Of a stretch of DNA of 48,516 nt, positions 1,903 through 4,436 are shown piece after piece. The notes below the pieces were generated by a model. That model saw only the letters and a list, made by a program, of their open reading frames with translations. It did not search any database and was not told the origin of the DNA. The stretch lies in NCBI GenBank assembly GCA_030950485.1, contig JAUZRK010000011.1:1-48516 (forward strand), written 5' to 3'. Source of the stretch: Candidatus Dojkabacteria bacterium (GTDB lineage: Bacteria; Patescibacteriota; Dojkabacteria; J137). Both the position numbers and the translations under genes were made by a program. Position 1 is the stretch's first letter. Each line of letters begins with the position of its first letter.

Positions 1903-1906
1903 TAAG

Positions 1907-1935
1907 TTGACTTATTATTCTTAAAATAATAATAT
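1907..1935 (+). promoter_or_regulatory. putative sigma70-type promoter (TTGACT-N17-TAATAT)
   Basis: TTGACT 1907-1912, 17-nt spacer, TAATAT 1930-1935, just after the upstream stop codon. Confidence 0.55.
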
Positions 1936-1942
1936 TGTGATT

Positions 1943-2005
1943 ATGAAAATATTTATAGTAAATACAAACTCAATGATGATGCCTCGAATAGGAGGTATAT
2001 GTTGA
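1943..2005 (+). CDS. putative leader peptide MKIFIVNTNSMMMPRIGGIC with three consecutive Met codons
   Basis: ATG at the predicted transcription start; ATGATGATG at 1973-1981; followed by terminator hairpin. Confidence 0.5.
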   Translation: MKIFIVNTNSMMMPRIGGIC

Positions 2006-2029
2006 TCGTATTTCAAATTAACTAAACAT

Positions 2030-2060
2030 AAACCTCCTGATTTATCAGGAGGTTTTATTT
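2030..2060 (+). terminator. intrinsic terminator/attenuator hairpin upstream of SAM hydrolase-metG operon
   Basis: aaacctcctga-ttta-tcaggaggttt, perfect 11-bp stem followed by a T-rich tail; only ~24 nt before the next start codon. Confidence 0.8.
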
Positions 2061-2083
2061 TATCTATTATCTATCAAGCTTTT

Positions 2084-2917
2084 ATGTATTTAACAATTAT
2101 TAATGATGGCGATTCGCAAAGTATAGCAAGAGCAGCTTCAAGGTTAGGTTCATTATTTAATTCTTCAGTAACAACCTTTAATGTTGGTAAATTTGCTGAT
2201 TTATCACTGGCAGGTAATTTAATTGATATTATAGACTCCTATGAAGACCGTGAAGGTATTATAATTGCTAACTCCGCACCAAGGCATGATTTAGCAAAAA
2301 AGTGGGAAAATGGAACTCCATTTGGTTACTTTAGGTATAAAAATTTAATAATTAGTTCAACAATAGACGGAAATTGTTTATCTTTAGTTAAAAAACTGAA
2401 ATTAGTTTCTAAAATAAAGGTTACAGATATTAAAAAAGTTTTAAATTGGGCTAAAGAAGAAAATGAGATTAGTGACGATATGTTAATTAATAGAATTATA
2501 AAATCTCAATATAGAAGTTTTGATTATCAACCAAGACTTGTAAAATGGATATATGATTATGGTGATGTGCCAAATGTAGAGTTAGAAATCAAAGACGTCA
2601 TCGATTTAGAGCCAAGTATTTATTGGATTGATAACTATGGAAATTGTAAAACTACTGTTTTACCAGAGGAATTTGATTTCAAGCCAGGAGAGATGGTTTT
2701 AACTAATTTTGGCGAGCTAAAATGTTACAATAGGATGAAGGATGTGCCTAATAGAGAAGAAGCTTTGGTAATAGGTAGTTCGGGAATTGATAATAAAAGA
2801 TTTGTAGAAATAATATCTCAGGGAGAATCTGCTAGTGAAAAACTAGGAATTAATATTGGAGATCAAATAATATTTAAAAAAATAATTAATAATCAAAAAA
2901 ATAAAAATGAGCAATAA
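2084..2917 (+). CDS. SAM hydroxide adenosyltransferase/DUF62-like protein
   Basis: C-terminal pattern IYWIDNYGNCKTT...GEMVLTNFG...EEALVIGSSGI...VEIISQGESASEKLGINIGDQI typical of the DUF62 family. Confidence 0.7.
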   Translation: MYLTIINDGDSQSIARAASRLGSLFNSSVTTFNVGKFADLSLAGNLIDIIDSYEDREGIIIANSAPRHDLAKKWENGTPFGYFRYKNLIISSTIDGNCLSLVKKLKLVSKIKVTDIKKVLNWAKEENEISDDMLINRIIKSQYRSFDYQPRLVKWIYDYGDVPNVELEIKDVIDLEPSIYWIDNYGNCKTTVLPEEFDFKPGEMVLTNFGELKCYNRMKDVPNREEALVIGSSGIDNKRFVEIISQGESASEKLGINIGDQIIFKKIINNQKNKNEQ

Positions 2918-4436
2918 ATTTTACTTAACAACTACACTTCCATATGTAAACGCCCTACCACATATTGGACACACATCTGAATTTATAAAAGCTGATGTTA
3001 TTACAAGATATAAAAGATCAGTTCTAGGAAAAGAAAATGTTTGGTTTAATGTAGGTACTGATGAACATGGTTTGAAAAACTATCAAAAGGCACGAGACCT
3101 TGGAAAAGAACCAAGAGAGTATGTAGACGAACTAGCTGCAGGTTGGAAAGAGTTTTGCGAACTTTATAGAATTAATTACGATACTTTCTATAGAACATCT
3201 GCAAGCTATCATGTAAAACCAGCGCAAGAGTTTTGGAAAAGAAGTGTTGCTAAAGGAGATGTTTATAAAAAGGAGTATAAAGGTTGGTATTGTGTTGGTT
3301 GTGAAGAATTTAAGACAGAAAAAGAAATTATTGAATCTGATGAAAAAGGTGAAAATGGTAAATGTGCTATACATAAGAAAGATCTAGTTTGGACTGAAGA
3401 AGAAAATTACTTTTTTAGACTTTCGAAATATAGAGACGAACTATTAAAATGGATTGAAGAAAATCCTGATGTGCTTAAACCTGCAAAAGCTAAAACTGAG
3501 CTAGTTAATTGGTTAAGTGAAATGGAAGATATTTCTATTTCTAGAAGTAAGGAAAATCTAGGGTGGGGAATTGATGTTCCTGGAGATGATACACAGGTAA
3601 TGTATGTTTGGTTTGATGCACTAACTAACTATGTTAATGTACTAGGGTTTGGCCAAGAATTCCCACCTAAGGAAGCATTTAAAAATGAAGAAGACTGGAG
3701 ACTCAAAACTCAAAACTCAAAACTCGAAGATTGGTGGCCAGGAGTACAAATTTTTGGAGTAGATAATTTAAGATTTCAATGTGCAATTTGGCAAGGGATA
3801 CTTTTAACAGCTGACCTTCCTCAAACTAAAAAACTTTTAAGAAATGGATTCATTTTAGCCTCTGACGGTACTAAGATGAGTAAGACAGTTGGAAATACAG
3901 TAAGTCCATTTGACCAAGAAGAAAAATATGGAGCTGAAGCCGTAAGATTTTATTTAGTTGCTGGAATACCTACTTATTCTGACTCACCTTACAAAGAAGA
4001 TGATTTAGTAAATATTTATAATTCACACCTTGCAAATAATTTTGGTAACCTTCTAAACAGAGTAATTCATCTAGCAAATACAAAAGAGGTTAAATTAAAT
4101 GACGAAGATTTAGTTGAAAATGACTTCAAAGAAAAGATTTTAGGCTATGAATCTAGGCTTAAAGGATTATACGAGGAATATGATTTGCAAGAAGCTGCAA
4201 ATTTAGTTAATGAATTAGCAACATTTGGTAATGAGTATATTACTGAAAATGAGCCTTGGGCTAAAGATAAAACTAATGAAGAGATTGAGCTAACTCTAAA
4301 TAACCTAAGTTATCTTTTAAAAACAGTTATTGAGCTATATGCTCCAATTATTCCTGATTCATGCGAAAGGGCTGCAAAAATGTTAGAAAAGAGAGAGAAG
4401 GGGGTTTTATTCGAGAAGAAAGAAGTTGGAAAATAG
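2907..4436 (+). CDS. metG: methionyl-tRNA synthetase
   Basis: TTTLPYVNALPHIGH, NVGTDEHGLK, GTKMSKTVGN; overlaps upstream ORF by 11 bp. Confidence 0.97.
   Translation: MSNKFYLTTTLPYVNALPHIGHTSEFIKADVITRYKRSVLGKENVWFNVGTDEHGLKNYQKARDLGKEPREYVDELAAGWKEFCELYRINYDTFYRTSASYHVKPAQEFWKRSVAKGDVYKKEYKGWYCVGCEEFKTEKEIIESDEKGENGKCAIHKKDLVWTEEENYFFRLSKYRDELLKWIEENPDVLKPAKAKTELVNWLSEMEDISISRSKENLGWGIDVPGDDTQVMYVWFDALTNYVNVLGFGQEFPPKEAFKNEEDWRLKTQNSKLEDWWPGVQIFGVDNLRFQCAIWQGILLTADLPQTKKLLRNGFILASDGTKMSKTVGNTVSPFDQEEKYGAEAVRFYLVAGIPTYSDSPYKEDDLVNIYNSHLANNFGNLLNRVIHLANTKEVKLNDEDLVENDFKEKILGYESRLKGLYEEYDLQEAANLVNELATFGNEYITENEPWAKDKTNEEIELTLNNLSYLLKTVIELYAPIIPDSCERAAKMLEKREKGVLFEKKEVGK
3701..3728 (+). repeat. 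heptanucleotide tandem repeat ACTCAAA x3 plus ACTCGAA inside metG
   Basis: Direct reading; encodes LKTQNSKLE in frame. Confidence 0.9.

Follow-up and report, generated by a model that had tools for sequence, protein, structure and literature searches.

A candidate methionine-sensing ribosomal attenuator upstream of a SAM-hydrolase-like/metG operon in Candidatus Dojkabacteria, with similar leaders in other Patescibacteria

Organization of the leader locus

The window analysed here is a stretch of 48,516 nucleotides (contig JAUZRK010000011.1, assembly GCA_030950485.1) from a Candidatus Dojkabacteria genome of 1.4 Mb in 30 contigs. Between a glycosyltransferase gene and an operon that opens with the gene of a SAM-hydrolase-fold protein and includes metG, there is a short ORF rich in Met codons, preceded by a putative promoter and followed by an intrinsic terminator (Table 1).

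Table 1. Features of the leader locus and of the downstream operon (window coordinates)
Feature	Position	Strand	Remarks
Upstream gene (glycosyltransferase)	stop ends at 1902		
Putative sigma70-type promoter	1907..1935	+	TTGACT 1907-1912, N17, TAATAT 1930-1935
Predicted transcription start	about 1941-1943	+	at or adjoining the leader ATG
Leader peptide ORF MKIFIVNTNSMMMPRIGGIC (then stop)	1943..2005	+	20 codons, ATG 1943, TGA 2003-2005
Putative regulatory Met codons ATG ATG ATG	1973..1981	+	Met run kept in relatives, flanking residues vary
Segment 2, putative antiterminator 5' strand	1988..2002	+	core AGGAGGT 1990-1996
Segment 3, terminator 5' arm plus 3 nt, partner of segment 2	2027..2040	+	pairing tests
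Intrinsic terminator hairpin AAACCTCCTGA-TTTA-TCAGGAGGTTT	2030..2055	+	11 bp, 4-nt loop
Terminator T-rich tail TATTTTAT	2056-2063	+	
SAM hydroxide adenosyltransferase (SAM hydrolase) fold protein	2084..2917	+	first gene of the operon; Pfam PF20257 above gathering
metG, methionyl-tRNA synthetase	2907..4436	+	Pfam tRNA-synt_1g 2.6e-86; NCBIfam TIGR00398 above cut-off

A previous sequence-only reading of this locus had listed a promoter-like TTGACT-N17-TAATAT after the upstream gene, the ORF with its three tandem ATG codons, an 11-bp terminator and the short segments gcctc (1981-1985), aggaggt (the core of segment 2) and acctcct (2032-2038). All of these elements were located where that reading had placed them, except that the gap between terminator and operon, given as ~24 nt, is 28 nt when measured from the terminator stem to the structural ATG. 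The promoter-like TTGACT begins 5 nt past the stop codon of the upstream gene; a scan of the 601-bp region returned four promoter-like matches against 3.5 expected, and the match taken alone would be only weak evidence for a promoter. Segment 2 also resembles a strong Shine-Dalgarno sequence (AGGAGG) lying 3 nt ahead of an ATG that opens a small frame, MLIVFQIN and stop (1990-2025), probably as a by-product of its need to pair, described below.

The downstream operon

The two genes of the operon listed in Table 1 overlap by 11 nt. In the protein encoded by the first one, Pfam recognised by sequence the C-terminal domain alone and not the N-terminal catalytic domain. An AlphaFold2 model built from 32 homologs reached a pLDDT of 93, and the top 14 PDB matches found for it by Foldseek were all SAM hydrolases, DUF62 proteins or the chlorinase SalL (E about 3e-11 to 9e-9), with no significant PDB match outside these three groups. 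The structural side of membership in the SAM_HAT family, the fold together with the C-terminal domain (Pfam, AlphaFold2, Foldseek), is thereby fulfilled; the protein has the same fold and C-terminal domain as PH0463, MJ1651 and the DUF62 (R)-SAM hydrolases, although it is only 13-15% identical to them.

Known SAM hydrolases split SAM into adenosine and methionine. Because this reaction releases methionine, induction of the SAM-hydrolase-like protein on methionine shortage fits salvage, and by analogy with these enzymes, its own activity being inferred, such a response would make better sense as methionine salvage than as SAM consumption. Regarding the genes proposed to be regulated, methionyl-tRNA synthetase and a "SAM-consuming" enzyme, the first identification was therefore upheld and the second needs correction, since the fold belongs to the methionine-yielding SAM hydrolases.

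Similar leaders in other Patescibacteria

Plain homology revealed no close relatives in the genus, and the first scans of genome contigs and viral contigs gave no match. Homolog-based and unbiased searches together identified about 22 further leader peptides rich in Met, almost every one with a terminator, ahead of genes encoding MetG, SAM-hydrolase homologs, homoserine succinyltransferase, homocysteine S-methyltransferase, a methyltransferase and, in a few cases, unknown proteins. In the family of the window, genome G007 has the leader MNNTVFNMMMTPNIS and a terminator ahead of metG (L007); metG of its genus-mate G001 has no leader. Among SAM-hydrolase homologs of other Patescibacteria, at 37-48% identity, leaders of the form MMM, MMxMM or MMMxMMM with terminators were found, such as MKNYTLIQKFMMMYSPPGS (L004/L077) and MNSSKYQTTNLMMARMMSGFRWEVSC (L036/L072), the latter in a locus whose sequence is identical in G041, a genome of the same class as the window. 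The same anatomy is present at L061, L065, L074, L075, L079, L080, L083, L086, L090 and L100. The Met run is often doubled, MMMxMM(M), in leaders that otherwise differ in their residues. No such leader precedes many other SAM-hydrolase homologs (e.g. L066-L071) or most metG genes of the class, and the distribution of leaders, wide within Patescibacteria, is scattered on the tree, requiring at least four changes. Given this scatter and the divergence of the proteins, the leaders do not represent recently shared sequence.

The unbiased search looked for ATGATGATGNNNATGATG in 380 Patescibacteria genomes, ignoring gene context. In nine of the 30 loci read from it, the Met run belongs to a short ORF with a terminator close behind and then a gene, and one of these nine (L065) was already known from the homolog search. 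The downstream genes include those for MetA/HTS (homoserine O-succinyltransferase; PF04204, 2e-60), homocysteine S-methyltransferase (PF02574, 8e-35) and a SAM-dependent methyltransferase. Three others (L120, L123, L127) have no Pfam hit; their proteins have NxAPR and QFRS-like motifs in common with SAM_HAT homologs and partial BLAST similarity among themselves, and by these motifs, assigned by eye, they probably form a divergent branch of that family. Behind clear MMMTMM and MMMSMMM leaders with terminators, L119 and L122 carry genes of unknown family that are candidates for new methionine-related genes.

Some loci depart from this anatomy. At L056, in a genome (G009) of the same order as the window, metG lies on the minus strand behind a leaderless GTG-start leader, MNNQSASQNFFMMMSC, with a hairpin TGTCCTG-TTAAC-CAGGACA over the leader stop codon, after the Met run, and without a clear GC-rich terminator; its output mechanism is perhaps different. 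In some genomes of family f7 (L037, L041, L042, L044, L046) a valS-like gene ahead of metG ends in QQMMS(H/L/R), and a hairpin ATGATGTCCC-NNTA-GGGACA spans its stop codon; metG itself is preceded by an AT-rich hairpin with a T run. This is possibly a methionine attenuator built into the 3' end of the upstream synthetase gene. The conserved hairpin motif ATGATGTCC...GGACA was considered as a wider element and set aside, as a search of the phylum returned mainly unrelated matches. The SAM_HAT homologs of L062 and L064 have short Met-poor leaders (MCMRRLRRRR, VMYMRGLR) that pair with the 3' rather than the 5' arm of the terminator and were classed as weak. The SAM_HAT homolog of L063 (G114) has 12 in-frame TGA codons, expected where a lineage reads TGA as glycine.

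Frequency of the arrangement by chance

A detector for short ORFs with at least three Met in a stretch of six codons and an intrinsic terminator behind them gave exactly one match on both strands of the window (97 kb of strand), namely the leader at 1943-2005. Applied to 40 related contigs that carry homologs of the first gene, it matched eight times within the 16 kb preceding these SAM-hydrolase genes, whereas the other 592 kb of flanking sequence gave no match. In the 1.4-Mb genome ATGATGATG occurs 45 times, and a terminator-like hairpin stands behind a short frame at few other sites. A second MMM/terminator site of the genome (L154, C1:144985) was rejected: the end of a gene is read there out of frame, and the terminator is a convergent one.

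Base pairing between leader and terminator

To evaluate the pairing, the stretch between Met run and terminator was hybridized in silico with the terminator arms in 23 leaders, with composition shuffles as null. The duplex of segments 2 and 3 in the window scores -15.3 against a shuffle mean of -4.7 (p 0.002). Pairing of segment 2 with the terminator 5' arm, as proposed from sequence alone, reached p<0.05 in 17 of the 23 leaders (Fisher p 3.5e-21), versus five of 23 for the 3' arm. When own and swapped arms were compared in 21 leaders, mean energies were -12.2 and -7.8 kcal/mol, respectively, and the permutation p of 5e-5 is the floor of the test. Examples are AGGAGGT:ACCTCCT (window), GGGGTT:AGCCCC (L007), GGGAGGTT:AACCTCCC (L072), AAGGATTAGT:ACTGATCCTT (L074) and GGGAAGGCT:AGCCTTCCC (L075). 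The sequences vary and yet own arms out-pair swapped ones, indicating that complementarity is kept, which is evidence of covariation of the kind that the sequence-only reading had called for. These p-values refer to a selected set, as leaders were partly picked by eye, with pairing not being the stated criterion; L079 was left out of the scoring owing to a mismatch in its terminator stem (by eye, its GGATCG pairs with CGATCC), and the segment scored in L090 is possibly not the true segment 2.

In contrast, a protector hairpin between segments 1 and 2 (gcctc:gaggt in the window), on which the proposed 1:2, 2:3, 3:4 layout of trp/his type depended, was not borne out: in none of 18 leaders was it better than shuffles (Fisher p 0.38). 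Because the 1:2 hairpin is unsupported, the switch predicted from these pairings would be a three-segment one, and the full four-segment trp/his layout is not established.

Ribosome footprints were placed on 18 leaders, assuming that a ribosome covers about 13 nt on the upstream side and 15 nt on the downstream side of the P-site codon. A ribosome at the first Met codon leaves segment 2 entirely uncovered in all 18; one at the stop codon covers it fully in ten, including the window, partly in five and hardly in three, and in these last three a further step must act against the pairing of segment 2.

Leaderless initiation

The predicted coincidence of transcription start and leader ATG had led to the suggestion that the leader is translated without an untranslated region, and this agrees with the whole set. 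Promoter-like sites whose -10 box lies 3-12 nt ahead of the leader's start codon score at least 10 in 22% of leaders compared with 1.2% of random positions, and at least 8 in 74% compared with 20%. Start codons were picked for maximal promoter score, and the null was given the same number of candidates. Leaderless initiation is thus supported across the leader set, as far as promoter-like sites can indicate it.

Proposed mechanism and alternative explanations

Several criteria of a ribosomal attenuator are met: a short ORF with a run of cognate codons; a terminator between this ORF and the first structural gene; a 2:3 antiterminator that is exclusive with the terminator and whose complementarity is kept across divergent sequences; and downstream genes concerned with that same amino acid, in its metabolism or in tRNA charging (metG, SAM-hydrolase homologs, HTS/MetA, homocysteine S-methyltransferase). 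Computation establishes the anatomy and its recurrence, together with the matched 2:3 pairings and the methionine genes downstream; that ribosomes stall at specific codons, that transcription reads through and that SAM yields methionine are inferences. The core of the sequence-only reading, a leader sensing Met-tRNA with an antiterminator and terminator before metG and a SAM enzyme, gains support from recurrence in divergent genomes, in which Met run, short ORF and terminator persist and the 2:3 pairing is rewritten yet complementary. We consider it very likely, in the absence of expression data, that the locus works by ribosome-mediated transcription attenuation and in this way senses how much charged Met-tRNA is available.

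According to this model, transcription would begin at or beside the ATG of the 20-codon leader. With ample Met-tRNA the ribosome would pass the three Met codons and reach the stop codon, where its footprint would hide segment 2, so that the terminator could fold and transcription would end ahead of the SAM-hydrolase-like/metG operon. When Met-tRNA is scarce, the ribosome would wait at the Met codons, or would not initiate at all, given that Met-tRNA is required at the start codon too; segment 2, being free, would pair with the terminator 5' arm and allow readthrough. The expected result is more methionyl-tRNA synthetase and more of an enzyme whose fold relatives cleave SAM into adenosine and methionine.

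Among the alternatives, the one that survives best, even if we regard it as improbable, is that leader translation matters and the Met codons do not, with any block of translation, or failed leaderless initiation, freeing segment 2. Without a protector hairpin an untranslated leader should indeed read through, and leaderless starts appear common; this explanation does not account, however, for a Met run that is kept and often doubled amid differing residues, or for downstream genes that are methionine genes. Much less room is left for the possibility that the hairpin merely terminates the glycosyltransferase gene, with an operon promoter downstream (e.g. TTATCA-N17-TATTAT, 2042-2070) and a Met ORF present by chance. 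The upstream gene does end at 1902, the hairpin could work on both strands and the promoter-like match at 2042-2070 exists, but the promoter scan of the region is at chance level, the Met-run ORF with terminator recurs before methionine genes elsewhere (eight matches versus none in background) and, across leaders, segment 2 is complementary to the terminator arm. Least credible is control of the terminator by a metabolite- or tRNA-binding RNA instead of a translated leader. It is true that metG and methionine genes are classic targets of T-boxes and SAM riboswitches, and that in Xanthomonas a SAM-I riboswitch is known to respond to uncharged initiator tRNA as well (PMC7270179). However, no Rfam gathering score was reached in the window or in the leaders of 13 related loci, permissive Rfam matches at the site were unrelated and sub-threshold, so that Rfam models recognise no conserved aptamer such as membership in the T-box or SAM riboswitch classes demands, and the pre-terminator transcript is only about 90 nt long and variable in sequence, its kept feature being a frame with Met codons.

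Regarding ribosomal reading of Met-tRNA supply beyond the window, we lean, with no great conviction, towards a Patescibacteria-wide class of methionine-sensing attenuators in which the leaderless start and the regulatory codons both need Met-tRNA. If this is true, initiation failure and stalling would both give readthrough, which would account for the lack of a conserved protector hairpin, and the class would govern release of methionine from SAM, methionine synthesis and Met-tRNA charging, as the first RNA-level amino-acid regulation recognised in the host-dependent Patescibacteria. These ultra-small bacteria, also known as the Candidate Phyla Radiation, have gene regulation that is almost unknown because few are culturable. 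The recurrent switch suggests that some of them couple transcription to translation and sense amino-acid supply at the ribosome, and that SAM-hydrolase-like proteins are treated as part of methionine supply. The leaders also hint at what this little-studied family of proteins does, and they offer a way to predict regulons in the genomes of uncultured organisms.

Comparison with known systems

The claim that the element is undescribed holds within the literature searched, in which methionine had no clear example of such an attenuator: open-access full texts, a scope that leaves out most subscription journals and all preprints, contained no methionine ribosomal attenuator in Patescibacteria. It must be qualified by a leader proposed in Streptomyces lividans, and the novelty of the Patescibacteria attenuator remains provisional. 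In S. lividans, among the Actinobacteria, attenuators with mostly leaderless leader peptides have been described (leuL2-leuS, trpL2-trpS, alaL-alaS, thrL-thrS and metL-metNIQ; PMC8079986), which have in common with the window a position ahead of tRNA synthetase genes. The metL leader (MSTTSDRTPATEATTTPGARCMCRRMCAF), proposed upstream of metNIQ, is the nearest published methionine leader (PMC8079986); unlike the window leader, it has no Met run and no clear terminator, and it controls a transporter. No conserved RNA element was found before Actinobacterial methionine operons (Seliverstov 2005; PMC1262725).

T-boxes and S-box/SAM riboswitches of metG and met operons act on the same genes with the same logic, in which methionine supply decides on a terminator, but they are large structured sensors that work without translation. 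In mechanism the window system resembles trpL, hisL and pheM-pheST of E. coli, the last being a precedent for attenuation of a synthetase: a short leader ORF with a run of cognate codons, a segment 2 able to pair with the terminator 5' arm and an intrinsic terminator just ahead of the first structural gene are shared with all three. The window system differs from these in responding to methionine, in its leaderless ORF, in the lack of a supported 1:2 hairpin, in having a SAM-hydrolase homolog as first gene and in belonging to the Patescibacteria. On the reading favoured here, it is a known mechanism that is new in its amino acid, gene and phylum context.
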